Shown piece by piece: positions 24,971 through 57,064 of a stretch of DNA of 64,000 bases. The position numbers and the translations under genes were made by a program. The notes beneath the pieces were generated by a model. It was not told the DNA's origin. It did not search any database and worked only from the letters and a program-made list of their open reading frames with translations. This DNA is from Enterobacteriaceae endosymbiont of Plateumaris braccata (lineage in GTDB: Bacteria > Pseudomonadota > Gammaproteobacteria > Enterobacterales > Enterobacteriaceae), in assembly GCF_012563325.1 (NCBI RefSeq), contig NZ_CP046232.1, positions 64,321-128,320 on the forward strand, read 5' to 3'. Within the stretch, counting starts at the first letter, position 1. Each line of letters begins with the position of its first letter.

Positions 24971-25028
24971 AAGGATGTTTATTTGAATATTAATAATAAA
25001 TTATATATTCAATATATAAAAAAAAAAA
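24971..25028 (+). promoter_or_regulatory. fabD translation start region with A11 tract
   Basis: AAGGA at 24971-24975 is placed 7 bases before a TTG at 24983, which opens a 15-codon frame ending in an 11-base A run (25018-25028). That frame is out of register with the FabD body; removal of one A would join the two. The FabD frame itself has a TAA at 25017-25019, so within it only the TTG at 25029 can start, and that codon has no ribosome-binding site, just poly(A). Confidence 0.5.
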
Positions 25029-25985
25029 TTGGCTGCTATTTTTCCTGGTCAAGGATGTCAATTTATTGGAATGTTATCAGATTTATTTGATAAAAATTTA
25101 ATTATTCAAAAAATTTTTAAGAAAGCATCTGATATTTTAAAATATGATTTATGGAAATTGATACAAAAAGGACCTTTAAAAAAATTAAATACAACTTATT
25201 ATTCTCAACCTGCTATATTAATAGCATCTTTTGCAATATATAAATTATGGATACAAAAAAGTAATATTATTCCTAATATTATGGTTGGTCATAGTTTAGG
25301 TGAATATACAGCTATGTTATGTAGCAACGTTATTAATTTTTATGATGCTATTCAATTAATTAATTATAGAGGAAAATTAATGCAAGAAATATCTGTTTCT
25401 CTAAAAGAGAGTAATATTGATGGATATTTTATGCAGGTTATTTTAGGATTAAATAAATTTTTAATTCAAAAAGTTTGTGAACAAGAATCAAAAAATAATA
25501 TAGTTAATATTTCTAGTTATAATACATATAATCAAGTTACAATTAGCGGTAATAAAAATGCTATCCTGAGAGTTATTAATGCATGTAAATTATTAGGTGC
25601 TCATAATATACCATTACAAATTAATGTTCCTTCACATTGTTTATTAATGAAACCAATCGTAAAAAAATTTAAAAAATTTTTAAAAAATATTAAATTTAAT
25701 TATCCTACAATCCCTATTATTAATACTTTAAATATAAAATGCGAAACATCTCCCAAAAAAATAAAATATAATTTAATACATCAATTATACAATCCAATTA
25801 ATTGGATTGGATGTATGGAATATATATCAAATAAAAATATAAATAATATATTAGAGTTTGGACCAAAAAATATACTTGCAAAAATAGCTAAAAATATTAC
25901 TAATAATTTAGATGTTATTTCAATAAACAATTCTAAAACATTATCTATTGCATTAAAAAAATATAATAATTTGAGGATAAAATGA
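25029..25985 (+). CDS. fabD: Malonyl-CoA-ACP transacylase, start uncertain (possible frameshift at A11)
   Basis: Loads malonyl groups onto ACP. The body is intact and well conserved: FPGQGCQFIGML (E. coli FPGQGSQTVGML), the Ser nucleophile in GHSLGEYTAM, catalytic His in VPSHCLLMKP, HQLYNPINWIG and FGPKNILAKI. 318 residues from a TTG at 25029; E. coli has 309 and begins only a few residues before FPGQG. That TTG lacks a ribosome-binding site, whereas a better-placed TTG at 24983 is one base out of frame behind an A11 run. Slippage, a leaderless-type start or a homopolymer sequencing error are all possible. Its TGA stop overlaps the fabG ATG by 4 bases, implying translational coupling. Confidence 0.88.
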   Translation: MAAIFPGQGCQFIGMLSDLFDKNLIIQKIFKKASDILKYDLWKLIQKGPLKKLNTTYYSQPAILIASFAIYKLWIQKSNIIPNIMVGHSLGEYTAMLCSNVINFYDAIQLINYRGKLMQEISVSLKESNIDGYFMQVILGLNKFLIQKVCEQESKNNIVNISSYNTYNQVTISGNKNAILRVINACKLLGAHNIPLQINVPSHCLLMKPIVKKFKKFLKNIKFNYPTIPIINTLNIKCETSPKKIKYNLIHQLYNPINWIGCMEYISNKNINNILEFGPKNILAKIAKNITNNLDVISINNSKTLSIALKKYNNLRIK

Positions 25986-26719
25986 ATTTAACAGGAAAAT
26001 TAGCTTTAGTTACGGGTGCTAGTCGTGGTATAGGATATTATATTTCTAATACTTTAGCACACTATGGTGCTAAAGTAATTGGTACATCTAAAAGTATAAA
26101 TGGTGTAAAAATTATAAATAAATACTTAGATAAAAAAGGTATAGGTTTAATATTAGATTTGATAAGTAATACTGTATCTGTTAAAAATTTTTTAAATGAT
26201 ATTCGTCATAAATTTGGTAATATAGATATTTTAGTAAATAATGCTGGCATTATTTCTGATAGTCTTCTTATAAATATGAAAGATAGTGAATGGAATAATG
26301 TTTTAATGACTAATTTAACTTCGGTTTTTAAATTATCACAAGAAGTTATACGTTATATGTTAAAAAAATCATTTGGACGTATTATTAGTATAGGATCTAT
26401 AATAGGTTCGATAGGTAATATAGGACAAGTAAATTATGCAGCATCAAAATCGGGTTTAATAGGATTTAGTAAATCTTTAGCTTTAGAAGTAGCACATAAA
26501 GGAGTTACTGTTAATATTATATCTCCTGGATTTATTGAAACTGATATGACTTGTAAACTTTCAAAACATACAAAAAATCATATTTTATCTAAAATACCTT
26601 TTAAACGTTTTGGTACTCCACAAGAAATAGCTAATGTTGTAGCGTTTTTAGCTTCTGATAAAGCATCTTATATTACAGGAGAAACAATACATGTTAATGG
26701 TGGTTTATATATGTCTTAA
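25982..26719 (+). CDS. fabG: 3-oxoacyl-[acyl-carrier-protein] reductase
   Basis: NADPH-dependent short-chain dehydrogenase for the first reduction of elongation. 245 residues (E. coli 244). Seen: TGASRGIGYYI cofactor loop at 12-22, NNAGI near 86, and the catalytic triad Ser (GSIIGSIG), Tyr and Lys (NYAASKSGLIG). The C-terminus ITGETIHVNGGLYM is typical. Start ATG overlaps the fabD stop (ATGA) and has GAGGA upstream within fabD. PntAB-derived NADPH would feed this enzyme. Confidence 0.98.
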   Translation: MNLTGKLALVTGASRGIGYYISNTLAHYGAKVIGTSKSINGVKIINKYLDKKGIGLILDLISNTVSVKNFLNDIRHKFGNIDILVNNAGIISDSLLINMKDSEWNNVLMTNLTSVFKLSQEVIRYMLKKSFGRIISIGSIIGSIGNIGQVNYAASKSGLIGFSKSLALEVAHKGVTVNIISPGFIETDMTCKLSKHTKNHILSKIPFKRFGTPQEIANVVAFLASDKASYITGETIHVNGGLYMS

Positions 26720-26846
26720 ATTAATATAATGTTTTTTATATAAACAAAATTTAATTTTAATAAAGATATTAATATTTAATTATTTTTTTAAAATTTGATA
26801 AATAGCGAATCATAATGTAAATAAGTTTTATAGGAAATTTAATAGT

Positions 26847-27086
26847 ATGAGTAGTTCTACAGAGAAACGTGTTAAGAAAATTATTAGTGAACAACTTGAT
26901 ATTAAACAAGAAAAAATTATTAATACTAATGCATTTATCAAAGATTTAGGAGCAGATTCTCTTGATACTGTTGAGCTAGTTATGGCTCTAGAAGAAGAGT
27001 TTAATACTGAAATTTCAGATGAAGATGCTGAAAAAATTACTACTGTTCAAGAAGCAATTAATTATATTAATAACCACAAAAATTAA
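26847..27086 (+). CDS. acpP: Acyl carrier protein
   Basis: Carries growing acyl chains on a phosphopantetheine arm. 79 residues (E. coli 78). The attachment Ser38 is in [18 protein letters not shown], which is identical to E. coli over most of its length. The gene is one of the least diverged and least A/T-rich in the window. TAGGAAA lies upstream of the ATG. A 14-bp hairpin begins 4 bases after the stop. Confidence 0.99.
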
Positions 27087-27090
27087 ATAA

Positions 27091-27131
27091 CATCAAAGGA
27101 TGAATAAAAATATTAAATTCATCCTTTGATG
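27091..27131 (+). terminator. acpP-fabF intergenic hairpin terminator
   Basis: CATCAAAGGATGAA (27091-27104) and TTCATCCTTTGATG (27118-27131) form a perfect 14-bp stem with a 13-base loop, followed by ATTATTTTAAAT. It starts 4 bases after the acpP stop. It probably ends or pauses transcription so that acpP is expressed above fabF, and may also shield the acpP 3' end. An ATG lies inside the right arm (27129), but the family start of FabF is at 27165. Confidence 0.7.
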
Positions 27132-27164
27132 ATTATTTTAAATAATAATTATACTATAAAAAAT

Positions 27165-28403
27165 ATGTTAAAACGTAGAGTTGTTATTACTGGAATAGGA
27201 CTTGTCACTCCTATAGGAAATACAATAAAAACTAGTTGGAATAATGTTATAAATGGAAATAGTGGTATTGATTTAATCAATGATTTTGATACAAGTAAAT
27301 ATACAACTAAATTTGCAGGATTAATAAAAAATTTTTCTTGTAAAAATTTTATTTTAAAAAAAAAAATACGTAATATGGATTTATTTATCCAATATGGAAT
27401 AGTTGCTTCTAAACAAGCAATAGATGATTCAGGAATAATTGTTAACGAAAATAATGCTCATAGATTTGGTGCAGCAATAGGTTCTGGAATGGGTGGTATT
27501 AGTTTAATAGAAAAAAATTATTACTTATTATATAATAAAGGACCTCGAAAAGTATCTCCTTTTTATATTCCATCTACAATGATTAATATGATAGTAGGAA
27601 ATATCACTATTGATTATGGTTTTAAAGGACCTACTATATCTATTAGTAGTGCTTGTAGTTCCGCTATGCAGAATATTGGAATAGCATCAAGAATTATATC
27701 TTATAATGATGCTGATGTAATGTTAGCAGGTGGGTCAGAAAAAGCAATAACTCCTTTAGGATTAAGTGGATTTTGTGCAACAAAAGCATTATCTAAAAGA
27801 AATAATAATCCTAAAGGAGCTAGCCGTCCTTGGGATAAAGATAGAGATGGTTTTGTTCTAAGTGATGGAGCTGGAATATTAGTGTTAGAAGAATATAATC
27901 ATGCTAAAAAACGTAACGCAAATATTTATGCAGAAATAGTAGGATTTGGTATGAGTAATGATGCTTATCATATTACTTCTCCTTCTAAATATGGAGAAGG
28001 AGCTATTCAAGCTATGTTTAATGCATTAAAAGATGCAAAAATCAATTCTAATCAAATTAAGTATATTAATGCACATGGAACATCAACTATATTAGGTGAT
28101 ATTGCAGAATTTCATGCTATTAAACATATTTTTAAAAATAGTTTAAATTTATTTGTAAGTTCTACTAAATCAGTAACTGGACATTTATTAGGTGCTTCTG
28201 GTGCAGTTGAATCTATTTATTCTATTTTATCGTTAAGAGATCAAATAGTTCCACCTACGATTAATTTAAATAATGTTGATAAAAATTTTGATTTAGACTT
28301 CATTCCTAATATCGCACGTGATGTATATAATATGAAATATGTATTATGTAATTCTTTTGGTTTTGGAGGAACTAATGCATCATTAATTTTTAAGAAGATA
28401 TAA
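27165..28403 (+). CDS. fabF: 3-oxoacyl-[acyl-carrier-protein] synthase II
   Basis: Condensing enzyme for chain elongation. 412 residues from the ATG at 27165 (E. coli 413), aligning as [12 protein letters not shown] with MSKRRVVVTGLG. Catalytic Cys in [10 protein letters not shown] (E. coli ATACTSGVHN), the two His in NAHGTST and [13 protein letters not shown]. No ribosome-binding site before the ATG; in-frame upstream codons (TTG 27126, ATG 27129) lie in the hairpin arm. As fabH is absent from its usual site and fabB is not seen in this window, FabF may be the main condensing enzyme; the source of the primer step is unclear. Confidence 0.96.
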
Positions 28404-28692
28404 TTAATTATATAATTAATATTGAATAATTTTTATTTTTTAAAAAATATAAATAAATAATAATTTTATAACATTTAGTTATATAACTAATTACTATTAA
28501 TAATAAAAATATATTTTGATATATAAAAAATTAATATTTAAGATAAATAAAAAATTATTCAATAATTTCTTAATATAAAATATTAATTTTTATAATCATA
28601 ATATATTATGATTTATTTTAAATAATTTATAATAAAATTATATTTAATAAAATAATAATAAACTTATTAAAAGTTAGGAATTATAAATAATT

Positions 28693-29700
28693 ATGTCAAA
28701 ATATAAAACATTATCATTATGTTATCCTTGGTTAAATAATCATTATAAAACAATAATACAACAATTTTTAAGAAATAAAAGTTATCATGCTTTTATCTTT
28801 TGTTCAATTAATGGTATAGGTACTATAGATTTAGTTTATGCATTAATTAAATGGATTTTGTGTACAAATAAAAAATTTTTAAATAACTGTAAAAAATGTA
28901 CAAGTTGTATTTTAATAAAAACTGGGAATCATCCTGATTTATATATTGTAAAAAAAAATAATACTAATATATCTATAAGTATAGATAATATTAGAAATAT
29001 TATTAATAATATTTCTAATAATTCTTATATAAATCAAGGTAAAATAATATGGTTACCATATGCTAAACAATTAAATCATTCATCTAGTAATGCAATTTTA
29101 AAAATTCTTGAAGAACCTCCTAAAAATACCTGGTTTTTTATGCAATGTTATCAAAAAAATGATTTATTACCTACAATATCTAGTCGTTGTCAAATATGGT
29201 ACATTAATACTCCATCTGAAAATGATGGATTGTTTTGGATACAAAAACAATCAAATAATTTTTATGAAAAAAAAATAATAATAACTGCATTACGTGTATG
29301 CAATCATTCTCCTATCAATGCATATAAATTATTAAATAGTTTTTTATGGATAGAAAGAAAAAATTTATATGAAATTTTTATTTCAGCAATAAAATATGAT
29401 ATATTATATTTATTAAAAATATTAAATAATAAAAATATTTTATTATATTTACATTGGTTATATTTCATATTAATAGATGTAATTAAATATCATTTAAAAA
29501 TTAATAAAAAATTTTTTTATAACTTAGATCAATATGATTCAATTTCAGTAATATCAAGTATAATAAAATTAAATAATATATTTTTAATTATAGATGATTT
29601 ATTATATTATCGTAATTGTTTAATTAATATTAATTATATTAATCAAAAATTAGTTTTAATTAGATTTTTATTATCATTTGAAAAAAAAATAAATTTTTAA
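28693..29700 (+). CDS. holB: DNA polymerase III subunit delta'
   Basis: Clamp-loader subunit. 335 residues (E. coli 334). AAA+-like N-terminal domain with the zinc cysteines kept (LCTNKK, NCKKCTSC), GNHPDLYIV, and SSNAILKILEEPPKNTWFFM followed by SRCQIW, the delta' sensor region. The C-terminal half is diverged and Lys/Asn/Ile-rich. In E. coli pabC, mltG and tmk lie between fabF and holB; here there is only a 289-base A/T gap, so they are lost from this locus. AGGA lies 13 bases upstream of the ATG. Confidence 0.93.
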   Translation: MSKYKTLSLCYPWLNNHYKTIIQQFLRNKSYHAFIFCSINGIGTIDLVYALIKWILCTNKKFLNNCKKCTSCILIKTGNHPDLYIVKKNNTNISISIDNIRNIINNISNNSYINQGKIIWLPYAKQLNHSSSNAILKILEEPPKNTWFFMQCYQKNDLLPTISSRCQIWYINTPSENDGLFWIQKQSNNFYEKKIIITALRVCNHSPINAYKLLNSFLWIERKNLYEIFISAIKYDILYLLKILNNKNILLYLHWLYFILIDVIKYHLKINKKFFYNLDQYDSISVISSIIKLNNIFLIIDDLLYYRNCLININYINQKLVLIRFLLSFEKKINF

Positions 29701-29760
29701 AAAAATAATTAATTATGTTTTATTATAATTATAAAAATAAATAAAAGTCAGGATTGTATA

Positions 29761-31221
29761 ATGTTTAATAATACATTTGCTAATTTACAAAAAGTTGGTA
29801 AATCTTTAATGTTACCAGTTTCAGTATTACCTATTGCTGGTATATTATTAGGTATTGGATCTGCTAATTTTTATTGGTTACCAAAAGTTATTTCTAATAT
29901 TATGGAAAAAACTGGAGGATCAGTTTTTTCTAATATGCCATTAATTTTTGCTATTGGTATTGCTTTAGGATTTACTAAAAATAATGGTGTATCTGCATTA
30001 GCATCTGTTATTTCATATGGTATTTTAACTAAAACTGTAGAAGTAATTATTCCATTACTATTATATAATATACCACATGATATTATACTAAAAAAACATC
30101 TTGCTGATACTGGAGTACTAGGAGGAATTATATCTGGATCTATAGCAGCATATATGTTTAATAAATTTTACCAAATTAAATTAGTAGAATATCTTGGTTT
30201 TTTTTCTGGCAAACGTTTTGTCCCTATTATATCTGGTTTAACTTCAATTTTTATTGGAGTTTTATTATCTTTTTTATGGTTACCTTTAGGTAAAATTATT
30301 CAATGTTTTTCACACTGGGCAGCTTATCAAAACCCAATACTTGCTTTTGGAATATATGGAATTGTAGAAAGAGCTTTATTACCCTTTGGATTACATCATA
30401 TTTGGAATGTCCCATTCCAAATGGAAATTGGATCATTTACTAATAATATAACAAAACAAATATATCATGGAGATATTGCTAGATATATATCAGGAGATCC
30501 TACTGCAGGAAAATTGGCAGGAGGTTTTTTATTTAAAATGTATGGTTTACCAGCTGCTGCAATTGCAATATGGCATACTTCTAAAAAAGAAAATAAAAGT
30601 AAAATTGGTAGTTTAATGTTATCTGCTGCATTAACTTCTTTTTTTACTGGAATTACAGAACCAATAGAATTTTCTTTTATGTATGTAGAACCAATATTAT
30701 ATATTATACATATAATTTTAGCTGGATTATCTTTTCCTATTTGTATTTTATTAGGTATGAGAAATGGAACAAGTTTTTCTCATGGTTTAATTGATTTTAT
30801 CATATTAAGTGGTCATGGTAGTAAAATATGGCTATTTCCAATAATAGGAAGTTTTTATGCTATAATATATTATTCTATTTTTAGAATATTAATAGTTAAA
30901 TGGAATTTAAAAACCCCAGGAAGAGAAATTTTAAATAATAATATATCAAACATTAAAAATAATATTATAAAAAATAAAATAGAATATATAAAACAATTAA
31001 TAGATGCTTTTGGTGGTAAAAAAAATATTACAAATTTAGATGCTTGTATTACAAGATTACGTATTAGTGTTATAAATATCAACAAAGTTAATCGAAAAAA
31101 ACTAATAAAATTAGGAGCAATTGGAGTTATTATATCTGGCAATGGAGTACAAGCAGTATTTGGAACTAAATCTGATAATTTAAAAACAGAAATAGATAAT
31201 TTTATAAGTAATAAATATTAA
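29761..31221 (+). CDS. ptsG: Glucose-specific PTS enzyme IICB
   Basis: Membrane transporter that phosphorylates glucose during uptake. 486 residues (E. coli 477). The EIIC domain (1 to about 390) has multiple helices with [23 protein letters not shown] and [13 protein letters not shown]. The EIIB domain at the C-terminus carries the phosphorylated Cys in [17 protein letters not shown] upstream of the ATG. Needs EI, HPr and EIIA-Glc, none of which is in this window. It follows holB as in E. coli with ycfH deleted. Points to host glucose as carbon source. Confidence 0.97.
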
Positions 31222-31253
31222 TTAATTTTAATTAATTTATAATTAATAATAAA

Positions 31254-31604
31254 ATGAAAAATAATAATGATATTTTTAAAAAAATAATATTACATAAAAC
31301 ATCAACAAATATTATATATCAAGATGAGTTAGTAACTGCATTTCATGATATTTATCCTAAAAGTCCGATACATATTTTAATTGTACCAAATAAATTTATT
31401 GCTACTCTTAATGATATTAATCAAACACATGAATTAATTTTAGGTAGAATGTTATTAGTTTCTTCTAAAATAGCCAAAAAAACAAATATAAATAAAAATG
31501 GATATAGAATAGTTATTAATTGTAATAAACACGGATGTCAAGAAATATTCTATTTACATCTACATCTTTTAGGTGGAAGACAAGGAATTAAAGAATATTA
31601 TTAA
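31254..31604 (+). CDS. hinT: HIT-family purine nucleoside phosphoramidase
   Basis: Hydrolyses AMP-lysine type phosphoramidates such as lysyl-AMP side products. 116 residues (E. coli 119). [27 protein letters not shown] and NKHGCQE match HinT. The HIT motif reads YLHLHLLGG, so the first His of the H-x-H-x-H triad is Tyr; the second (nucleophile) and third remain. C-terminal tail shortened. Close to ptsG as in E. coli, with fhuE deleted. Confidence 0.92.
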
Positions 31605-31658
31605 TACAAATTTAATATTTCTATTATATAAAAATTTTTTTAAATTAAAATTTTAAAA

Positions 31659-31693
31659 CTGATAATAATATATTAATCACTCTTTATTATCAG
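31659..31693. terminator. Bidirectional hairpin between hinT and nhaP2
   Basis: CTGATAATAA (31659-31668) and TTATTATCAG (31684-31693) form a perfect 10-bp stem with a 15-base loop in the 136-base gap between two convergent genes. A run of T precedes it on the plus strand at 31635-31640, which reads as A-rich on the minus side. Placement supports a shared 3' end. Confidence 0.45.
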
Positions 31694-31740
31694 AGATAAA
31701 TTATTAGAAATAATTTAAATAAAAAAATTTTATATTTTAA

Positions 31741-33474
31741 CTAATATTTTTTTATAGATCTAATACCTATTCTAGTAATTTTATTATTTTCTTTTTCTGC
31801 TATAGTCCATAAAATATTATTCCATTTTATATGATCTCCAACAACTATAGTATTATTTTGCATTAAAGAAATTAATAATTTTCCAATAGATTGTTGAACA
31901 TCAATATTTTTATTTAATTTTAAACTATAAATTTTTGCTATATCATATAATTTAGCTTCAGCATCTAGAATAAAATCTCCAAAAAATTTTTGACTAAGAG
32001 ATAATGAAACTGTTTGACTAAATAATTTTCCTAAATCTGTTAAATTATTTTCACAACCCATAATACAGATTATATCATTTTTTTGTAAAATAGTATTTCC
32101 TATTGGTCTTATTAATTTACCCTTTCTAAATAATGCATTAATAAATGTTTTTTTAGGTATATATAAATCACGTATTGCAGTCCCAACACACCATGTTTTT
32201 GCATCTAATTTATAGGTAAATTGTTCCCATTGTTCTTTAATATTTATATCTAAATTAGTTCTATGAATAGGTAAAACAATAGAAGGTAATAATACTTTTG
32301 TCTTAACTGCAAAAAAATTTAAAAAGCTTCCTTGAAGTATTAAAGAAATTAAAACAATAAAAAATGCTATATTGAAAAATAACATAGCATGTTCTATTTG
32401 TGCTATTATAGGAAATAAAGCTAATATAATTGGAACAGCACCTCTTAATCCCATCCAACTAATAAAAAATTTTTCACGTATATTAAAATTATCAAATGGT
32501 GATAATACTATAAAAACAGATAAAGGCCTTACTAATAAGATCATCCAAAATGATAATATTAACGATGGTAATGCAATATGTAACAAAGAACTAGGACTGA
32601 CTAATAATCCTAATATCAAAAACATAGTTATTTGACTGAACCATGCAATGCCATCAAAAATTTGAAGAATATTATTCTGATTACGAATATTATAATTACC
32701 AATTAAAAAACCATATAAATAAATAGCTAAAATACCACTACCATCTAATAAATTAGTTAAAGAAAAAATAAGTATACCAATACTTAATACTAATAAAGGA
32801 TATAATCCACTAACTAATATAATTTTATTAATAATTTTTTTTAATATCCACGCGCCAATTAATCCTAATATTATTCCTAATATAAATTGTTTAATTAAAT
32901 AAATAAAATGTATTAATAATATATTAATAGTAAAATTTAATTGTTTAATTTGAATCATTTTAATAATAGATGTTGTTAAAAATACAGCCATAGGATCATT
33001 ACTTCCAGATTCTATTTCAAGAGTAGAAATAACTCTTTCATTTAATCCTTTTCCAGAAGTAAAAATAGCAGCAGCATCAGTGGATGCTAATATTGAAGCA
33101 ATTAAAAAACCATAAATTAAATGTATTTTAAACAAATAAGACGCCATTATTCCTGTTAATCCTGCAGTTATTAAAACTCCAATTGTTGCCAAAGATAATG
33201 CAGGAATTAAAGCAATTTTAATTGAAGAAATTTTTGTTCTCATTCCACCATCAAGTAAAATAACAGCTAAAGATAAATTACTAATAATATTTGCTATTTC
33301 ATAACTATGAAATGAAATTCTTCCAATACCATCTGATCCAGCTAATATACCTATTGCTAAAAATACCAATAAGATAGAAATACCTATTTTAGAAGTAATT
33401 GAACTTATTAAAATACTAGATGCAATTAATATACATCCTATAATAAATAAAATTAAAGTTGATTGTAAATCCAA
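31741..33474 (-). CDS. nhaP2: K+/H+ antiporter NhaP2 (CvrA)
   Basis: CPA1-family inner-membrane antiporter. 577 residues (E. coli 578). About twelve helices in the first 390 residues, with LDGGMRT, the ESGSNDPMAVFLT signature carrying the transport aspartate, and SWMGLRGAVPIILA. The C-terminal cytoplasmic TrkA_C/CorC-like part is also kept (WCVGTAIRDLYIPKKT, RFFGDF-like KFFGDF). The TTG at 33474 is supported by AGGAG 8 bases upstream and by alignment to the E. coli start (MDLQST against MDATTI). STDAAAIF is followed directly by TSGKGLNERV, two to three residues shorter than E. coli. Confidence 0.95.
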   Translation of the reverse strand: MDLQSTLILFIIGCILIASSILISSITSKIGISILLVFLAIGILAGSDGIGRISFHSYEIANIISNLSLAVILLDGGMRTKISSIKIALIPALSLATIGVLITAGLTGIMASYLFKIHLIYGFLIASILASTDAAAIFTSGKGLNERVISTLEIESGSNDPMAVFLTTSIIKMIQIKQLNFTINILLIHFIYLIKQFILGIILGLIGAWILKKIINKIILVSGLYPLLVLSIGILIFSLTNLLDGSGILAIYLYGFLIGNYNIRNQNNILQIFDGIAWFSQITMFLILGLLVSPSSLLHIALPSLILSFWMILLVRPLSVFIVLSPFDNFNIREKFFISWMGLRGAVPIILALFPIIAQIEHAMLFFNIAFFIVLISLILQGSFLNFFAVKTKVLLPSIVLPIHRTNLDINIKEQWEQFTYKLDAKTWCVGTAIRDLYIPKKTFINALFRKGKLIRPIGNTILQKNDIICIMGCENNLTDLGKLFSQTVSLSLSQKFFGDFILDAEAKLYDIAKIYSLKLNKNIDVQQSIGKLLISLMQNNTIVVGDHIKWNNILWTIAEKENNKITRIGIRSIKKY

Positions 33475-33629
33475 AGAGTGGTGCTCCTGTATTTCGGATT
33501 ATCATTAATTTTGACAAAACTTAACATTTCATATGAATAATAAATAATAATGTATATATAAATTTATGTTTTAAAATATTAAATAATATATCCGAAAACA
33601 AGATTTATTTTATAAACTTGATATGAATA

Positions 33630-33671
33630 TTTTAACTGATAAACATTTATACGAAGCTTTATCAGTTAAAA
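33630..33671 (-). terminator. gapA transcription terminator
   Basis: TTTTAACTGATAAA (33630-33643) and TTTATCAGTTAAAA (33658-33671) form a perfect 14-bp stem with a 14-base loop, starting 27 bases beyond the gapA stop. Read on the minus strand the stem is followed by a short T-containing stretch (ATATTCATATC). Its place between gapA and the nhaP2 leader fits a terminator or 3'-protecting hairpin. Confidence 0.6.
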
Positions 33672-33698
33672 GTCTAAATATTATTAAAAGACTAATAT

Positions 33699-37556: not shown

Positions 37557-38303
37557 TTATTTTATTAAAAAATAACATTTTGTTAAGTAAATTATAAATA
37601 TAATTGTTATAAAATTATTAATAATATTAAATATTAATAATAATAAATAGGAATTATTAAATAATAAAATAGTATTTAAAATTAATAAAAAAAATTTTAT
37701 TATTAAATATATTAAAAAAATAGGAAATATTATTTTTTTATTAATCCAAACTAATTTTATACTATAAGTAATAGAAATAAAAATATTTGTTTTTTCTATT
37801 ATTCTAATTATAGGAAATAATAATAAAAAAAAAAATATTATTATATTATAAAAAATACCTATTATAAAATAATAATTTAAAATTATATTTATAATAAAAA
37901 ATATTATAAATAATATAGGAAAATTATAAAAAATATTTTCTATAATAAAATTAATAATATTTTTTTTTTTATTATTATCAATAATTATAACTGAAATTGT
38001 AATAATTATTATTAAAAAAAAATTTATTAAAGTTACTATTTTATGTATAAAAAAATAATAATTTATAGATAACTTTTGTTTGTTTGTTAAATGTTGTAAG
38101 ATTAAAAAAAAATTATTAAAATTATTTTTTTTAATAATATCTTTCAATATAGTAATAAATATTTTTTTATAGGGATAAGTTAAATATTCTATCATTAAAT
38201 ATAATATGGAAAAACTTAAAACGATTTTTATAAAAAACATCAAATATTTTTTGAAAAATATTTGAGTTTTATTTGTTAATAATTTAATTTTTAAAAAAGA
38301 CAT
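37557..38303 (-). CDS. yciC: YciC/UPF0259 family inner-membrane protein
   Basis: Polytopic membrane protein of unknown function. 248 residues (E. coli YciC 247), extremely rich in Ile, Phe, Asn and Lys with about six hydrophobic segments. The identification rests on the C-terminal half: IKLVWINKKIIFPIFLI against MRLTWANMRLVAPAVLS, and NNFITIIFIIYL then CYFLIK against SNLISAILLIYL then LYMLIR. It lies 35 bases after trpA on the same strand; in E. coli yciC is a near neighbour of trpA too. No ribosome-binding site is visible, so translation may depend on the trp transcript. Confidence 0.82.
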   Translation of the reverse strand: MSFLKIKLLTNKTQIFFKKYLMFFIKIVLSFSILYLMIEYLTYPYKKIFITILKDIIKKNNFNNFFLILQHLTNKQKLSINYYFFIHKIVTLINFFLIIIITISVIIIDNNKKKNIINFIIENIFYNFPILFIIFFIINIILNYYFIIGIFYNIIIFFFLLLFPIIRIIEKTNIFISITYSIKLVWINKKIIFPIFLIYLIIKFFLLILNTILLFNNSYLLLLIFNIINNFITIIFIIYLTKCYFLIK

Positions 38304-42819: not shown

Positions 42820-42820
42820 T

Positions 42821-49061: not shown

Positions 49062-49887
49062 AAAATGGTTATTTTATGCTAATATTATCTTAAAAAAAAA
49101 TAAAATATATCTATCTAAAATAGAATCAGAAATATTATTATCTTTTGTTCTTAATAAATCTAAATTTTGGATCTATGAATTTTATGAAAATTATTTAAAT
49201 ATAACACAATTAAAAAAATTAATGCAATTATTAAAAAGAAGAATAAATGGTGAACCAATTGCTTATATATTAGGATATTGTGAATTTTGGTCATTAAAAA
49301 TTAATGTTTCATCATTAACTTTTATACCTAGACCAGATACAGAAATTTTAGTAGAACACACATTAACAAAAATTAAATTTAATACAAAAAATATATTAGA
49401 TTTAGGTACAGGAACTGGAGCTATAGCTTTAGCTATAGCTAGTGAATGTAATAAATTAAATGTTATTGGAATAGATATAGTTCCAGAACTAATTAATATT
49501 GCAAAAAAAAATGCAAACAAATTATCTATTCATAATGTTAATTTTATACAAAGTAATTGGTTTAGTAATTTAAAACATCAAAAATTTGATATTATTGTAA
49601 GTAATCCTCCTTATATTAAATATAAAGATTATTTATTTCTTGAAAAAAGTATAAAATTTGAACCAATATATTCTTTAATTGCAGAAGATAATGGATTATC
49701 TAATTTTAATTCTATTATTTTACAATCTACTAAATATTTAAATAAATTTGGATGGATAATACTAGAACATGGATTCAATCAATCTAATCAAATTATGAAA
49801 ATATTACAAGAAAAAAAATATAAGAATATAAAAACTTGTTTAGATTATAATGGTAATAAAAGAGTAACTTATGGACAAAAAATTTAA
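49051..49887 (+). CDS. prmC: Release factor glutamine methyltransferase
   Basis: SAM-dependent N5-methylation of the GGQ glutamine of RF1 and RF2. 278 residues from the ATG at 49051 (E. coli 277), which overlaps the last 11 bases of prfA. SAM loop [16 protein letters not shown] near residue 115, catalytic NPPY in VSNPPYIKY near 185, and [10 protein letters not shown] then LIPRPDTE-like FIPRPDTE. Upstream in-frame codons inside prfA do not align with the family. Gene pair order is that of E. coli. Confidence 0.95.
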
Positions 49888-50081
49888 TTTTTTTATAAAA
49901 ATTTTAATAAATTAAAAATTATTTTATTGTTATATAAATAAATATCACTATAATAATTATTATTAATTTTAATAACTAATAATTTTATTATATTTATAAT
50001 AATATATTAAATATATATATTTAATTGTAACTAATTATTTTAAAATTTATTAAATTCAATTAATTAATATAAAAGAAAAAA

Positions 50082-51374
50082 ATGCAACAAAATAATAATT
50101 CATCTAATTTTAATAATAAAAAAATAAAAAAAAAAAAACAATTATTAAATAAAAATAAATTACTAGAATTTGATCATAGAATATTTGGAAAAAAACTCAA
50201 TTTATATCATTTTCAAAATGAATCACCAGGGATGGTTTTTTGGCATAATAATGGTTATATTATTTTTCATGAATTAGAAAAATTTTTACGTAAAAAACTT
50301 GAAAAATATAACTATCAAGAAGTAAAAACACCATTAATAACAGATAGTATAATTTGGAAAAATACAGGACATTGGAAAATTTATAAAAAAGCGATTTTTA
50401 GTACATTTTCTGAAAATAGAAATTATTGTATTAAACCTATGAATTGTCCAGGACATATACAAATTTTTCAACAAGGTTTGAAATCATATAAAGATTTACC
50501 TTTAAGAATTGCAGAATTTGGTATTTGTCATCGAAATGAACCATCAGGTTCTTTGCATGGTTTAATGAGATTACGTAGTTTTACTCAGGATGATGCTCAT
50601 ATATTTTGCACACAAGAACAAATTTTAATAGAAATCGAAAATTGTATTAATATGATGCGTGAAATTTATCAAATTTTTGGTTTTAAAAATTTTTTAGTAA
50701 AATTATCTACAAGACCTAAAAACCGTATTGGAAATAATGAAGTATGGGATCAATCTGAAAAAAATTTAGCTATAGTTTTAAAAAAATTAGGTATAACTTT
50801 TAATTATCAGGTTGGAGAAGGTGCATTTTATGGACCTAAAATAGAATTTTCTTTTTTCGATTGTTTAAATCGTGAATGGCAATGTGGTACAATACAATTA
50901 GATTTTACATTACCAAATTGTTTAAATTTATTTTATATAGATTCTAAAAATGAACGTAAAACACCTATAATAATTCATCGTGCTATTTTAGGTTCTATAG
51001 AAAGATTTATTGGAATTATTCTGGAGGAATATTCTGGTTATTTACCTATTTGGTTAGCTCCATTACAAATCATCATAATTAATGTAAGTAATAAACATAC
51101 TGATTATGTTATAAATTTATTAAATATAATAAAACAAAATAATATTCGAGTTCAAGCAGATTTAAAAAATGAAAAAATATCTTTTAAAATTAGACAATAT
51201 ACTATACAACATATACCTTATATTTTAATATGTGGAGATAAAGAAATAGAAAATAATACAGTATCAATTCGTGATTGTTTTGGTAAAGATTTGGGAAATA
51301 TGAAAATTCATGATATTATCAGCAAGGTAAAAAAAGAAATTAATAATTATAATATTCATCAATTGGGGAGATAG
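50082..51374 (+). CDS. thrS: Threonyl-tRNA synthetase lacking TGS and editing domains
   Basis: Class II synthetase for tRNA-Thr. Only 430 residues against 642 in E. coli: after a 25-residue Asn/Lys-rich lead the protein begins at the catalytic core (FDHRIFGKKLNLYHF against RDHRKIGKQLDLYHM). The whole N-terminal TGS (about 1-62) and N2 editing domain (about 63-224 in E. coli) are missing, and the 194 bases upstream hold no remnant. Catalytic zinc ligands are intact: Cys122 in MNCPGH, His in QDDAHIF, His in IHRAILGS; RNEPSG is present. The anticodon-binding domain is complete (VQADLRNEKISFKIR). Serine mischarging would go uncorrected in cis. Heads the infC-rpmI-rplT-pheST operon. Confidence 0.95.
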   Translation: MQQNNNSSNFNNKKIKKKKQLLNKNKLLEFDHRIFGKKLNLYHFQNESPGMVFWHNNGYIIFHELEKFLRKKLEKYNYQEVKTPLITDSIIWKNTGHWKIYKKAIFSTFSENRNYCIKPMNCPGHIQIFQQGLKSYKDLPLRIAEFGICHRNEPSGSLHGLMRLRSFTQDDAHIFCTQEQILIEIENCINMMREIYQIFGFKNFLVKLSTRPKNRIGNNEVWDQSEKNLAIVLKKLGITFNYQVGEGAFYGPKIEFSFFDCLNREWQCGTIQLDFTLPNCLNLFYIDSKNERKTPIIIHRAILGSIERFIGIILEEYSGYLPIWLAPLQIIIINVSNKHTDYVINLLNIIKQNNIRVQADLKNEKISFKIRQYTIQHIPYILICGDKEIENNTVSIRDCFGKDLGNMKIHDIISKVKKEINNYNIHQLGR

Positions 51375-51377
51375 GAT

Positions 51378-51917
51378 ATTAAAAGTGGAAAAAAAATGAT
51401 ACAACTTAAACCTAATAAAATTAATGAAAATATTAAAGCTAAAATTGTAAGATTAATAGGTTTTAAAGGTGAGCAAGTTGGTATTGTTGATTTGAAAATT
51501 GCAATCATGAAAGCAAAAGAAATTGGATTTGATTTAGTAGAAATTAGTCCTAATGCAAATCCTCCTGTATGTCGTATAATGAATTATGGTAAATTTTTAT
51601 ACATAAAAAATAAAACATCAAGAGAACAAAAAAAGAAACAAAAAATAATTCAATTAAAAGAAATAAAATTTAGACCAAATACAGATCAAGGAGATTATCA
51701 GGTTAAATTACGTAGTTTAATTCGTTTTTTAGAAAAAGGAGATAAAATAAAAATAACTTTAAGATTTAGAGGTAGAGAAATGGTACATATCCAAATTGGA
51801 TTTTCTATGTTAAATAGAATAAAAAATGATTTAAATCATTTAGCTTTAGTTGAATATTTTCCCAAAAAAATTGAAGGAAGACAAATGATAATGATTTTAG
51901 TACCTAAAAAAAAATAA
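51378..51917 (+). CDS. infC: Translation initiation factor IF-3, AUU start
   Basis: Binds 30S subunits and proofreads start codons. Body strongly conserved: [34 protein letters not shown], the linker, [30 protein letters not shown] and [10 protein letters not shown] place the start at ATT 51378: reading ATT-K-S-G-K-K then [10 protein letters not shown] aligns codon for codon with the E. coli AUU start (KGGKRVQTARPNRIN), and GGGGAG at 51365-51370 sits 7 bases upstream. That gives 179 residues (E. coli 180). The in-frame ATG at 51396 lies after an A8 run with no ribosome-binding site. In E. coli the AUU lets IF3 repress its own synthesis. Confidence 0.93.
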
Positions 51918-51979
51918 TTATAAATTTTTTTTATAAAATAATACGTTAGTTTTTTAAAAAATATTTGGATTACATAAAT

Positions 51980-52177
51980 ATGTTCAAACTTAAAACATTA
52001 CGTAGTGCTGCTAAACGTTTTAAAAAAACAAGTTCTGGAAAATTTAAACATAAACAAGCTAATTTAAGACATCTTTTAACAAAAAAAAAAGCTAAAAAAA
52101 AACGTTCTTTAAGAAAAAAAAAATTAGTATTTAAAGGAGATACATATTCATTAATATCTTGTTTACCTTATTTATAA
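51980..52177 (+). CDS. rpmI: 50S ribosomal protein L35
   Basis: 65 residues, the usual length. [24 protein letters not shown] start, [15 protein letters not shown] middle and SLISCLPYL end match E. coli. ATG at 51980; an in-frame TTG at 51965 is not needed. Preceded by TTGGAT, a weak ribosome-binding site. In E. coli its translation is repressed by L20 through an RNA pseudoknot; I could not confirm that structure here. Confidence 0.96.
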
Positions 52178-52211
52178 AAAAATTTAATAAAATTTGGAGA
52201 TCTTAAATTAT

Positions 52212-52562
52212 ATGGCTAGAGTTAAACGAGGTGTAATTTCTCATACCAGACATAAAAAAATTATTAAACAAGCTAAAGGATATCTTGGATCAAGATCAAG
52301 AACTTATAGATCTGCATTTCAAGCAATTGTAAAAGCAGGGCAATATTCTTATCGTGATAGACGTCAACGTAAAAGAAAATTTCGTCAATTATGGATTATA
52401 AGAATTAATGCTGCAGCTCGTCAAGAAAATATTTCTTATAGTTGTTTAATGAATAGATTTAAAAAATCTAATATTAATATTAATAGAAAAATTCTTTCTG
52501 AATTAGCTATTTTTGATAAACAATCATTTACTAAGTTAATAAATTTTACAAAAATTAATTAA
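52212..52562 (+). CDS. rplT: 50S ribosomal protein L20
   Basis: 116 residues (E. coli 118). [23 protein letters not shown] start, [27 protein letters not shown] and [13 protein letters not shown] are near identical to E. coli. ATG at 52212 with GGAG 13 bases upstream; an in-frame TTG at 52194 overlaps that site and is not used. L20 assembles early on 23S rRNA and in E. coli also represses this operon. Only 23 bases separate it from pheS. Confidence 0.97.
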
Positions 52563-52585
52563 TTATTAATGAGAATATCTAAAAA

Positions 52586-53572
52586 ATGATATCTGATCTT
52601 AATCAAATAATAATAAATGTAAAAAAAGAAATTAATTTAATTAATAATATTAAAGAATTAAATATTTTTAAAGTAAAATATTTAGGAAAAAAAGGATATA
52701 TATCTTCACAATTTTTATTATTAAAAAAATTAACAAAACAAGAAAAAATTGAAAATAGTACAATTATTAATAATATAAAAAAACAAATCAAAACATTAAT
52801 AAAACAACATAAAAATAAATTAGAATCTAATAATATTAAATTTCAAGTTTTAAATAAAAAAATTGATATTACACTTCCTGGTAGATACTTTAAAATGGGA
52901 TCTCAACATCCCATAACTATGGTAATTTATGATATTGAGAATTTTTTTATAAAATTAGGATTTAAAATAACAGAAAGTCAAGAAATAGAAGATGTTTATC
53001 ATAATTTTGATGCATTAAATATATCAGAAAATCATCCTTCACGAACAGAACAAGATACTTTTTGGTTAAATAAAAAAAATTTATTACGTACACAAACTTC
53101 TAATATGCAAATTAGAATGATGAAAATTTTAAATCCTCCTATAAGAATATTAACTTCAGGTAAAGTATATCGAAATGATTATGATAACAGACATACTCCT
53201 ATGTTTCATCAGATAGAGGGATTATTAATAGACAATAATATTAATTTTTTAGAATTAAAAGCAATATTATCTTTATTTTTAAAATATTTTTTTGATGAAA
53301 AATTAAAAATTAGATTTAGACCATCTTATTTTCCATTTACTGAACCTTCTTTAGAAGTAGATATTATGGGTACAAATAATAAATGGATTGAAGTTTTAGG
53401 AGCAGGTATGGTACATCCTAATGTATTAGGTAATATTAATATTAATTTATTAAATTATTCAGGTTGTGCTTTTGGTATTGGAGTAGAACGTTTAGCTATG
53501 TTACGTTATAATATTAACGATATACGTTTATTTTTTGAAAATGATATACGTTTTCTTAAACAATTTAAATAA
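52586..53572 (+). CDS. pheS: Phenylalanyl-tRNA synthetase alpha chain
   Basis: Catalytic subunit of the alpha2-beta2 enzyme. 328 residues (E. coli 327). N-terminal coiled coil (about 1-85) is diverged; catalytic motifs follow: HPSRTEQDTFW, the motif 2 region KVYRNDYDNRHTPMFHQIEG, FRPSYFPFTEPS, GAGMVHPNVL and GIGVERLAML (motif 3). In E. coli the pheM leader peptide and attenuator separate rplT and pheS; here the 23-base gap leaves no room for them. Confidence 0.97.
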   Translation: MISDLNQIIINVKKEINLINNIKELNIFKVKYLGKKGYISSQFLLLKKLTKQEKIENSTIINNIKKQIKTLIKQHKNKLESNNIKFQVLNKKIDITLPGRYFKMGSQHPITMVIYDIENFFIKLGFKITESQEIEDVYHNFDALNISENHPSRTEQDTFWLNKKNLLRTQTSNMQIRMMKILNPPIRILTSGKVYRNDYDNRHTPMFHQIEGLLIDNNINFLELKAILSLFLKYFFDEKLKIRFRPSYFPFTEPSLEVDIMGTNNKWIEVLGAGMVHPNVLGNININLLNYSGCAFGIGVERLAMLRYNINDIRLFFENDIRFLKQFK

Positions 53573-53576
53573 AAAT

Positions 53577-56054
53577 ATGATTAAATTAAGTGAATTATGG
53601 TTACAAAAATGGATTCCCTATAATAATATTAAATTATTATCTGAACAATTAACAATGTTAGGATTTGAAGTAGAAAAAATTGAAGCAGTTTGTAAAACAA
53701 AGATAGATAATATATTTATAGGCCAAGTCATTGCTTGTCAGTTTAACAATAATAAAAATATTTATGATTTAACTATAGATATAGGAAATAATAAATTATA
53801 TAAAGTAAAATCAAATGCAATTAATTGTAAAAATAAAATAAAAGTAGTTATTGCAACTGTAGAATCATCTTTATATAAAAAAAACATACATAATCAAAAA
53901 TTTAATTTTTTATTCCAATCAGAAGGATTATTGTGTTCTAAAAAAATGCTAGGATTAAAAAACAATATATATGAAAATGTTAATCATATATTTATATTAA
54001 ATAATAATGTTAAAATAGGACAAAATGCTTATAAATATTTACAATTAAATGATAATATACTACATATTAATATACCATATAATCGTTCTGATTGTTTAAG
54101 TATTATGGGTATAGCAAGAGATTTATCAACTAAAATACAAAATGAAAATTATTTATTCACATTTCCTTATGAATATCATACAACTCAAAAAAAACAAATT
54201 AATAAAATAAATGTTTATATAAATAAAAATGCTAATAAATATAATTTAAGTTATTTTTATTGCGTTATACAAAATATTAATTTACGAAATAAAATTCCAT
54301 TTTTAATAGAACAAAGATTACAAAAATCGGGAATATTAATATCAAATAACAATCCTTTATTAAATATTAGTAATTATATAAATTTAGAATTAGGATTTCC
54401 AGTATATTTTTATGATCTTAATAAGATTACAGGTAATGACATATACATAAAAAAATATAAAAATGTTAATAACGATTATTTCATAGATGAAAAAAATAAT
54501 AAAATATCCTTATTAAAAGATACTTTAATAATTAAAGATAAAGAAAAAATACTATCTGTTCCAATTTTAGCACAAAACAAAAAAGTTATTATTAATATAG
54601 ATACTAAAAATATTTTATTAGAATGTTTTTTTTTGGATGCTAGTACAATAAAAAATTTATCTAATAAATATAAAATATTTAATTTGTTTACAAATCTTTA
54701 TGAAAGAGGATTAGATCCATTAATACAAAAAAAAATAGTATTAAGAACTATAAATCTAATATTACAAATATATGGTGGTGAAAGAAGTAAAATTAAAGTA
54801 GTAAACACAGATAATTATATTAATAATTTTTTAAAATTAAAAATAATTAAATTAAATTTTAAAAAAATTGAAAAAACATTAGGGTTTATTATAAAAAAAC
54901 ATAAAATATTCAATATAATTAATAAACTAGGATTTAAATTTATATTAAAAACAGATATTGATTGTACTGTTCAAATACCTAGTTGGAGATATGATATAAA
55001 AATTGAAGCTGATATAATAGAAGAAATAATACGTATATATGGATATAATAATATTCCTAATAAATATATTAAACTAAATTTAATTGAAAAAAATATTAAT
55101 TTTGATTTACTTTTAAAATTTAATAATATAAAAAAAATAAAAAATTCTCTAATTAGTAAAGGATATAATGAAGTTATTAACTATAGTTTTATAAATCCTA
55201 AAATACAATCTTTAATCTTTCCTAAAGAAAAATTTATTAAATTATGTAATCCTATTTCAACAGAAATGTCTATTATGCGTACTTCTTTATTATGTGGATT
55301 AATAAATAATATAATTTATAATCAGAATAGACAACAAAAATCTTTACGTTTTTTTGAAAGTGGATTATGTTTTAAAATAAATAAAAAATTAGAATTTGGA
55401 ATATCTCAAAAGTTAATGTTTGGAGGAATAATAAATGGTAAATTACATGAAGAACATTGGTCTTTATCTAATAGAAATGTAGATTTTTATGATTTAAAAG
55501 GTGATATAGAATATATATTTGACCTTTTAGGAAAAACAGATAAAATAGAATTTAGAACGATATCTAATATAAATTTTTTACATCCTAATCAAGGAGCATC
55601 TATATATTTAAATAATATTTTTATTGGATATATTGGAGTAATACATCCTTATATTCAAACATATTTAGGAATTAATGAAAATACTATTTTATTTGAATTA
55701 GAATGTAATAAAATATTAAATTATACAGAAACAAAAATTAAAACAATATCAAATTTACCAGTAAATCGTAGAGATATTTCTTTAATAGTAAAAGAAAATA
55801 TTCCTTTTATAAGTATTATACAAGAATGTAAAAATTTTTCAATAAGACAAATTATTGATATAAATTTATTTGATGTATATAAAGGTATAAAGATTCCTAA
55901 AGGATATAAAAGTTTTACAATAAGTTTTATTATACAAGATAATACTCACACATTAAAAGATCAAGAAATTAATAATATTATACAATTATGTATAAATAAA
56001 TTAAAAATAAAATTTCAAATTACATTAAGAGACAAAAACTGTGACTTTAACTAA
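53577..56054 (+). CDS. pheT: Phenylalanyl-tRNA synthetase beta chain
   Basis: 825 residues from the ATG at 53577 (E. coli 795), 4 bases after pheS. Start IKLSELWLQKWI aligns with the family. EMAP-like tRNA-binding domain (about 40-150), the B3/B4 editing region, B5 (RYDIKIEADIIEEIIRIYGY) and the C-terminal ferredoxin-fold anticodon-binding domain (NLPVNRRDISLIV) are all present but Asn/Lys/Ile-inflated. Its last 14 bases overlap the proposed GTG start of ihfA. Confidence 0.96.
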   Translation: MIKLSELWLQKWIPYNNIKLLSEQLTMLGFEVEKIEAVCKTKIDNIFIGQVIACQFNNNKNIYDLTIDIGNNKLYKVKSNAINCKNKIKVVIATVESSLYKKNIHNQKFNFLFQSEGLLCSKKMLGLKNNIYENVNHIFILNNNVKIGQNAYKYLQLNDNILHINIPYNRSDCLSIMGIARDLSTKIQNENYLFTFPYEYHTTQKKQINKINVYINKNANKYNLSYFYCVIQNINLRNKIPFLIEQRLQKSGILISNNNPLLNISNYINLELGFPVYFYDLNKITGNDIYIKKYKNVNNDYFIDEKNNKISLLKDTLIIKDKEKILSVPILAQNKKVIINIDTKNILLECFFLDASTIKNLSNKYKIFNLFTNLYERGLDPLIQKKIVLRTINLILQIYGGERSKIKVVNTDNYINNFLKLKIIKLNFKKIEKTLGFIIKKHKIFNIINKLGFKFILKTDIDCTVQIPSWRYDIKIEADIIEEIIRIYGYNNIPNKYIKLNLIEKNINFDLLLKFNNIKKIKNSLISKGYNEVINYSFINPKIQSLIFPKEKFIKLCNPISTEMSIMRTSLLCGLINNIIYNQNRQQKSLRFFESGLCFKINKKLEFGISQKLMFGGIINGKLHEEHWSLSNRNVDFYDLKGDIEYIFDLLGKTDKIEFRTISNINFLHPNQGASIYLNNIFIGYIGVIHPYIQTYLGINENTILFELECNKILNYTETKIKTISNLPVNRRDISLIVKENIPFISIIQECKNFSIRQIIDINLFDVYKGIKIPKGYKSFTISFIIQDNTHTLKDQEINNIIQLCINKLKIKFQITLRDKNCDFN

Positions 56055-56354
56055 AAAAAAATTTCTCAATATTTAGTTAAAAAATTTAAAATATATAAAA
56101 AAGATGCATTATATTTAGTATGTTTATTTTTTAAAGAATTAAAAAAAACTTTATTAAAAGGAGAAATAGTAAAATTATCTGGTTTCGGTAAATTTGAAAT
56201 ACATAATAAAAATTTTAGGCCAGGTCGTAATCCAAAAACAGGAAAATTTATACTTATTCATGCTAGAAAAGTTATAACTTTTAAAGCATGTCAAAAAATA
56301 AAAAAAAATTTATACAATATTTCATTAAATAAAAAAAATAAAATTAAATTTTAA
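56041..56354 (+). pseudogene. ihfA: Integration host factor alpha, one-base frameshift in an A9 tract (possibly still expressed)
   Basis: Sequence-specific DNA-bending protein, alpha half of IHF. From GTG 56041 the frame reads T-L-T-K-K-K-F then stops at 56074. With one more A in the A9 run (56053-56061) it reads [22 protein letters not shown], a gapless match to E. coli [22 protein letters not shown]. The remaining frame is open to 56354 and well conserved: [15 protein letters not shown] and the minor-groove arm RPGRNPKTG. Corrected length 104 (E. coli 99). Directly follows pheT as in E. coli. I type it as pseudogene only because no single frame holds both start and body; conservation suggests function. 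Confidence 0.85.
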
Positions 56355-56459
56355 TAAAATTATTATTTTTTTTTATTTATTAAATAATATTAAATTAATT
56401 TACTATTAATAAATAATATTGTATTTATATATAATATAAATATTAATAGGATTAAGTTT

Positions 56460-57064
56460 ATGTTTAGTGGAATTATTCAATGTATAGCGATAATAAAATT
56501 ATTAATTAAAAAAAAAATTTTATATATATGATAATAAAAACACCTAATTTATTTACTTTTGATTTAAAAAAAGGAGATTCTATTGCAAATGATGGGTGTT
56601 GTTTAACTATAAGTAATATAATTAATAATTTAATATGTTTTCATATTATTAAAAATACATTAAATATTACAACATTTAAAAAATTAAAAAAAGGAGATTG
56701 TTTAAATATTGAAAAATCATTAAAATTAATTGATTTTGTTGGTGGTCATTTAGTTTCTGGACATATTACAGATGTTGCTACAATTATTAAAGTAACAAAT
56801 TATATTAATTCTAAAACAATATGGTTAAAACCATATCATCAATCTCAAATGAAATATATTTTTCAAAAAGGATCTATATGTATAGATGGTATTAGTTTAA
56901 CAATAGATAAAGTTTATATTAATCAATTTAGTATTAATCTTATTCCAGAAACAATTATAAAAACTGTATTAGCAAGTAAAAAAATTAATCAAAGTGTTAA
57001 TATTGAAGTAGATCTATATACTAAAATAGCTGTAAATACTATAGAAAAATTGTTTAATCAATAA
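56460..57064 (+). CDS. ribE: Riboflavin synthase alpha chain, one-base frameshift in an A10 tract
   Basis: Dismutates lumazine to riboflavin. The true start is ATG 56460 (MFSGIIQ, E. coli MFTGIVQ), but that frame stops at 56529 after an A10 run (56508-56517). Adding one A gives ...KKKNFIYMIIKTPN, matching E. coli EKPNFRTHVVELPD with identical spacing. The main frame then runs to 57064 with both lumazine-binding repeats: NDGCCLTISN, GGHLVSGHI, KGSICIDGISLTI and LIPETI. An ATG at 56528 could make 178 residues, but would lack the N-terminal MFSG segment that is part of the family active site. Corrected length 201 (E. coli 213). Confidence 0.9.

Follow-up and report, generated by a model that had tools for sequence, protein, structure and literature searches.

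A 64,000-nucleotide stretch of DNA from the Enterobacteriaceae endosymbiont of the reed beetle Plateumaris braccata (hereafter the window) raises the question of what becomes of genes whose reading frame is broken by a single base within a run of adenines. A sequence-only reading of the window had reported such frame errors near the starts of three genes, fabD, ihfA and ribE, and had compared them with a state described for Buchnera and Blochmannia. The comparison holds insofar as the breaks lie in A-runs of genes that otherwise look intact, and a second species retains two of the breaks. We consider it likely, with a probability of roughly 0.7, that the breaks in the window are real insertions or deletions (indels) in the DNA that arose by replication slippage and are kept since slippage restores some of the product. 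For fabD, an out-of-frame A-tract of one kind or another is present in all 24 genomes of the symbiont genus.

The window corresponds to positions 64321-128320 of contig C1 of a two-contig, 517-kb genome with a GC content of 20%, which comprises a chromosome of 512,214 bp and a plasmid contig of 5,287 bp, the latter aligning over 98% to a plasmid of the P. pusilla symbiont (identity 77%). The genus sample consists of 24 genomes of reed-beetle symbionts, five from Plateumaris (P. braccata, G000; P. sericea, G001; P. pusilla, G002; P. rustica, G003; P. consimilis, G004) and 19 non-Plateumaris genomes (16 Donacia, two Macroplea, one Neohaemonia), named below by their hosts. Plateumaris is reported to be the sister of all remaining reed beetles, whose diversification covers 75-100 million years, and the assemblies are described as built with SPAdes from Illumina NextSeq 150-bp paired reads, that of the Macroplea mutica symbiont as combining PacBio with Illumina; neither “frameshift” nor “pseudogene” appears as a word in the main text of that paper (PMC7289800). 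Frames were tested by in-phase comparison on alignments of 60 coding sequences (CDS) of the window with as many as four Plateumaris relatives (for CDS 37557-38303 with a single one), since tblastn among all stop-to-stop open reading frames (ORFs) proved too noisy; the phase test is blind to any break common to all five Plateumaris genomes.

In ihfA and ribE the sequence-only reading is borne out, each gene being one base out of frame at a run of sense adenines within the first 25 codons (Table 1). The same out-of-frame states are found in the P. consimilis symbiont, thus in two of the five Plateumaris symbionts, while both genes are in frame in the P. sericea, P. pusilla and P. rustica symbionts, where a G splits the run in three of the six cases. 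Downstream of the tracts the genes remain open. The downstream frame of ribE matches PRK13020 with 183 bits (cut-off 180), its residue 2 falling on profile position 25, and that of ihfA reaches 100.2 bits against NF001401, under the cut-off of 111. When the symbionts of P. braccata and P. consimilis are compared, the ratio of nonsynonymous to synonymous substitution rates (dN/dS) downstream of the tract is 0.36 for ribE (95% bootstrap 0.17-0.72) and 0.33 for ihfA (0.14-0.79), compared with a median of 0.22 over 60 genes, so that both frames are under purifying selection, perhaps relaxed.

Table 1. Features of the frame breaks and their surroundings, in window coordinates.
Feature	Position	Strand	Remark
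Shine-Dalgarno-like AAAGGA	24970..24975	+	7 nt upstream of the leader TTG
fabD leader	24983..25017	+	TTG-started, out of frame with FabD
A11 tract joining leader to FabD	25018..25028	+	homologous runs in the other four Plateumaris symbionts
fabD, malonyl-CoA:ACP transacylase	25029..25985	+	uninterrupted; possible TTG start at 25029
ihfA 5' piece to zero-frame stop	56041..56076	+	GTG 56041, stop 56074-56076
ihfA A9 tract	56053..56061	+	length identical in P. consimilis symbiont; different or interrupted in-frame run in P. sericea, P. pusilla and P. rustica symbionts
ihfA downstream frame	56061..56354	+	no own start codon; dN/dS 0.33 against P. consimilis symbiont
ribE 5' piece to TGA	56460..56531	+	ATG 56460, TGA 56529-56531
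ribE A10 tract	56508..56517	+	length identical in P. consimilis symbiont; different or G-interrupted in-frame run in P. sericea, P. pusilla and P. rustica symbionts
ribE downstream frame (riboflavin synthase)	56510..57064	+	PRK13020 match; dN/dS 0.36 against P. consimilis symbiont
rne sense A10 (T10 on the + strand)	21463..21472	-	probable frame change of the C-terminal tail; not at the 5' end

A further single-base break within a run of at least eight adenines is found in fabD, a gene that is essential in E. coli, outside Plateumaris. In all 19 non-Plateumaris genomes fabD is broken by one base near codon 142, within one conserved run of 9 to 13 adenines (A13 in seven genomes, A10 in eleven, and A9 followed by G in the D. 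tomentosa symbiont); this break is thus shared by 19 of the 24 genomes of the genus. The coding length is 2 mod 3 in every one of them and 0 in all five Plateumaris symbionts, where this site is in frame; the difference between A10 and A13 is a substitution and not an indel, leaving the frame relation unmoved, as judged by visual inspection of the sequences. The zero frame runs into a stop at most eight codons past the run in all 19. Both halves are kept: the first 132 codons, as taken here, are open in 19/19 and the last 160 in 18/19, the remaining genome having a stop at residue 158 of 160, and median dN/dS before and after the break is 0.34 and 0.42, respectively, over the 160 of 171 pairs retained by the dS filter, which places both halves under purifying selection. 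Most simply, the break would stem from a single event on the branch to the non-Plateumaris symbionts, since Plateumaris is sister to all others and the site is broken in all 19. When the window genes were searched with tblastn in six of these genomes (51-54 found in each), fabD alone gave a clean frame switch in 6/6; the further flags concerned one to three genomes each, with stops not resolved singly. More generally, the lengths of coding A or T runs of at least nine were unchanged in 436 of 455 comparisons of the P. braccata symbiont with its four relatives, and those of non-coding runs in 7 of 18 comparisons, the latter representing only six distinct runs. Translation of the second half by reinitiation was considered and rejected as a general solution, because in 14/19 genomes no start codon (ATG, GTG or TTG) lies in the second frame within 45 nt of the run; the other five have one or two there. 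Searches of the open-access literature, outside which most subscription journals lie, returned no report of a fabD frameshift in endosymbionts or reed-beetle symbionts, so that the clade-wide, constant-phase break and its Plateumaris alternative appear, as far as searched, not to have been described before. Automatic annotation may call fabD a pseudogene in these 19 genomes, and the fatty-acid pathway would then be misread.

In the window itself the picture for fabD differs from the one first drawn. An out-of-frame A11 does lie at the place given by the sequence-only reading, behind a TTG leader, but the FabD frame is uninterrupted and matches TIGR00128 at full length (283.2 bits, cut-off 260.9; profile positions 4-289 of 290). 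The leader joins FabD only via the A11 tract, and the P. braccata gene thus has a leader or start problem rather than a broken conserved protein. A TTG preceded by AGGA or AAGG occurs also in the P. sericea, P. pusilla and P. rustica symbionts, and none was found in that of P. consimilis. The offset of this TTG is 1 mod 3 in the P. braccata and P. pusilla symbionts and 2 mod 3 in those of P. sericea and P. rustica, and the run measures 11 adenines in the P. braccata and P. sericea, 9 in the P. consimilis, 12 in the P. rustica and 13 in the P. pusilla symbiont. Every ATG, GTG or TTG found upstream in the five genomes is put out of frame by the 5' tract, and in four of the five the FabD frame has no such codon from the preceding stop up to the conserved motif, TTG 25029 of P. 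braccata being the only in-frame start candidate. With two phases, variable lengths and no leader TTG in P. consimilis, the Plateumaris 5' tract drifts; by contrast, the mid-gene tract of the other symbionts does not.

These observations would be explained if, in a strongly AT-biased and vertically inherited symbiont, replication slippage altered the length of the ihfA and ribE A-runs by a single base. The simplest course would be one such event per gene, in an ancestor that the symbionts of P. braccata and P. consimilis have in common. RNA polymerase inserting an extra A at such runs would then restore part of the product, and -1 slippage of the ribosome on A AAA AAA may add to this restoration. 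A break that lies early in a gene would cost little wasted translation, which may explain why breaks near gene starts survive. In fabD the out-of-frame state has become fixed clade-wide, at the 5' leader in Plateumaris and at one mid-gene codon in all others examined. The breaks, their sharing, the constant phase and the purifying selection are observations, and slippage, a partial product and any effect on dose are inferred. Among nine breaks counted here as independent, a set gathered as found and leaving out the mixed-direction Plateumaris fabD leader, eight are of the -1 kind (P 0.04), a direction that fits slippage since one inserted A in the RNA, or a -1 move of the ribosome, would compensate for it. 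Transcription insertions in Buchnera are reported to fall in homopolymers in 151 of 157 cases, with deletions mostly elsewhere (PMC5574713), and for some frameshifted endosymbiont genes a review gives 12-50% of transcripts as corrected (PMC5009743).

Several points weigh against this explanation. In the same Buchnera study, as far as its reported results go, Traverse and Ochman describe no frame-restoring transcription error (PMC5574713), and the -1 excess could equally come from a mutational deletion bias. Among the 60 genes dN/dS is 7th highest for ribE and 16th highest for ihfA, so some relaxation of selection on both is possible, and dN/dS, being cumulative, cannot place the break in time within the divergence between the symbionts of P. 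braccata and P. consimilis. Finally, the next 100 kb of the P. braccata genome (80 ORFs) showed no A-run break beyond last-codon differences, which lends no support to the suggestion that such breaks are a widespread expression state here.

The alternative that fares best concerns the step of restoration, which might be achieved by -1 ribosomal frameshifting on A AAA AAA or A AAA AAG instead of transcriptional slippage. Indeed, a zero-frame A AAA AAA is present at the mid-gene fabD site in 19/19 genomes (in D. tomentosa also A AAA AAG) and, by reading of the sequence, at ihfA and ribE, and in all 19 fabD genes the zero frame meets a stop nearby. However, downstream structure is inconsistent, with a mean z of -0.14 over the 19 fabD sites and values of -3.1 for the N. 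nigricornis and -2.0 for the D. simplex symbiont, no Shine-Dalgarno-like element lies upstream of the mid-gene site at the usual spacing, and all 19 runs are A9 or longer, beyond the ribosome's need. With neither a consistent structure nor a well-placed Shine-Dalgarno element, transcriptional slippage is favoured at mid-gene fabD, and a purely ribosomal mechanism seems the less likely route, at perhaps one chance in four by our estimate.

Alternatively, ihfA and ribE could be early pseudogenes, already inactivated and with their decay merely pending. In favour of this, ihfA has no match in any of the 19 non-Plateumaris genomes and is therefore dispensable there; both genes have dN/dS above the median, and nth and a purH-like gene have decayed in some relatives. 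On the other hand, no second frame break was seen in ihfA or ribE in either the P. braccata or the P. consimilis symbiont, the upper bounds of dN/dS stay below 1, and both halves of fabD are kept in 19/19 genomes. For ribE there is in addition one match without internal stop in 24/24 genomes of the genus, and its pathway supplies riboflavin, which is reported as a service of the symbiont to its host. Pending decay is thus an unlikely account of the two genes. A little more doubtful still is the proposal that alternative starts make the genes whole, namely TTG 25029 in fabD, which would cost only about three FabD residues relative to the E. coli sequence, and ATG 56528 in ribE. The former is unique to P. 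braccata among the five Plateumaris symbionts; the latter, the first ATG of the ribE downstream frame, lies past the N-terminal part of the family and would leave out approximately 23 positions at the start of the riboflavin synthase profile, and ihfA offers no ATG, GTG or TTG anywhere in its downstream frame. Homopolymer error in sequencing or assembly, which comes to mind since all three reported lesions are homopolymeric and were judged from assemblies, is very improbable given that the ihfA and ribE states are identical in two separately sequenced species, that the fabD state recurs in 19 genomes including the PacBio-supported M. mutica symbiont, and that fabI and thrS, with longer runs (A13), keep their phase throughout the five genomes. 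Both error and recent decay of ihfA and ribE thus appear unlikely, because the breaks are common to the P. consimilis symbiont and the downstream frames are under purifying selection.

Taking the breaks as real indels at A-runs, their number and position can be asked. The sequence-only reading had found no frameshifts elsewhere in the window, and what differs otherwise among the 60 CDS is indeed confined to the first and last codons and to genes that have decayed in a relative, with one probable exception: rne (21418-23325, minus strand) ends early and its C-terminal tail resumes in another frame past a sense A10, which is probably a fourth A-run break of the P. braccata genome. This tail is poorly conserved; the P. 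consimilis symbiont has a separate frame change at a nearby T8, and no similar tail was seen in the P. rustica symbiont. The 60 CDS, with starts as called, contain 48 sense runs of at least nine adenines, nine of them in the first 25 codons. Breaks affect three of these nine early runs and none of the 39 others (Fisher P 0.005), or one of 39 if rne is included (P 0.017); if the early breaks are restricted to ihfA and ribE, the values are 0.026 without and 0.07 with rne. The breaks thus tend to gene starts, as had been proposed, on the basis of very few events and with the rne tail as a case away from the 5' end. The genes with the longest runs, fabI (A13, 16968-16980) and thrS (A13, 50126-50138), are without phase change among the five genomes. 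Compared with the next 100 kb, the window is a local excess of breaks (3/60 versus 0/80, P 0.08); eight Buchnera genomes are reported to carry 1 to 18 homopolymeric frameshifts each (PMC3164680).

A second phase run took the P. pusilla symbiont as reference for 61 window ORFs and 81 ORFs of the next 100 kb and gave 40 and 31 flags, respectively; last-codon flags were not resolved singly and start-region flags were inspected in part. Those near the starts of grxD, pheT, nth and fabF were discarded as ORF extensions past the true start or tRNA neighbours, and an apparent truncation of fieF at the window edge disappeared once the gene was read across the edge. The names grxD, pheT, pheS, gapA, murE, murF, mutL, purH, fabG, acpP and fabF are presumptive assignments from the sequences. 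Other changes were seen along the way. The gene nth (58416-59057, minus strand) is intact in P. braccata, broken in several places in P. pusilla and without a match in P. sericea; the purH-like gene L242 of P. rustica (G003:C1:~212,300-213,900) has several frame changes, in that genome only; and holB of P. pusilla (L071, homologue of window 28693-29700) has lost the aligned ATG start via a small deletion. In thrS (50082-51374) the N-terminal part of the profile is absent, the match beginning at 154 of 565, and the in-phase A13 lies at codon 15, at the new N-terminus. The yciC-like gene 37557-38303 (minus strand) has the highest dN/dS of the window, 0.60 against P. consimilis; under the filter of at least 45% identity it has no match in the P. 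sericea, P. pusilla and P. rustica symbionts, the P. rustica match being very divergent.

The sequence-only reading had also raised the possibility that A-tract length sets protein dose. Such an effect would be most plausible for fabD, because an out-of-frame A-tract is present there throughout the genus. One may go further and suppose that fabD is obligatorily recoded, its out-of-frame poly(A) being actively kept and not just tolerated, since slippage would fix the dose of FabD at a low level compared with the products of its neighbours fabG, acpP and fabF. We regard this as a tentative idea that is rather unlikely to hold. If it did, the mid-gene phase would have been constant since the ancestor of the Donacia, Macroplea and Neohaemonia symbionts, the length-variable 5' site would do the same job in Plateumaris, in-frame fabD would be selected against, and four further genomes of three genera would have arrived there independently, in one case almost at the same codon. 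These four come from 48 of 49 genomes of at most 0.9 Mb in the family sample, outside the genus, with a fabD match (G143, which has one match, was left out). Their fabD is split, scored as two matches, each time at an A9-A10 run; shortened genes could be missed by this score, as the extent of single matches was not checked for all. Judged by eye, the break of G096 (L256/L257) lies within about one codon of the Donacia site, that of G216 (L253/L258) about 13 codons past it, and those of G132 (L259/L250) and G142 (L260/L247) near codon 75. The control genes gapA (0/45), pheS (0/48), thrS (0/48) and pfkA (0/41) were never clearly split (0/182 in total), where second matches at 20-37% identity were counted as paralogues and G178, with a decayed gapA in two weak fragments, was dropped from 46 matched genomes. 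The difference to fabD (4/48) has a P of 0.002, or of 0.018 if two doubtful pheS cases are counted; since the controls were picked after the fabD result was known, the over-representation of split fabD in reduced relatives is a lead only. The two pheS cases, in G145 and G072, have matches that begin at residues 58 and 68 and contain internal stops, and are possible 5' frame breaks like those of the window.

In phase-variable contingency loci the tract length varies within a population and switches a surface function; the genes affected here have housekeeping functions, and each species is represented by one assembly. The closest known systems are those of Buchnera and Blochmannia, for which rescue of poly(A) frameshifts by transcriptional slippage was reportedly set out by Tamas et al. 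in 2008. The reed-beetle symbionts share with them an AT-rich genome within an insect and a single-base lesion at an A-run in an otherwise intact gene; they differ in the host group, in being known from DNA alone and in the clustering of the window breaks at gene starts. Such rescue in both genera is also treated in later work (PMC3017870, PMC3164680, PMC5009743). The present case adds a further ancient insect symbiosis, and with fabD a core lipid gene, to those in which poly(A) frame breaks are known. In dnaX a comparable run is recoded, by the ribosome in E. coli (A AAA AAG) and by transcription in Thermus thermophilus (9 As) (PMC3711429). The slippery runs are of the same kind, and those of the reed-beetle symbionts are followed by a stop, but dnaX gives two useful products and fabD shows no consistent stimulators. 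We know of no use for a FabD fragment of about 142 residues. For Blochmannia, Wernegreen, Kauppinen and Degnan are said to have described ancient, maintained frameshifts in 2010, which resemble the present case in that different species retain the break and selection acts on both halves. Unlike there, fabD of the reed-beetle symbionts is broken with identical phase in 19/19 members of a clade, with a second place in the sister clade, and this clade-wide constancy of phase is relevant to the question whether symbionts tolerate such breaks or make use of them.

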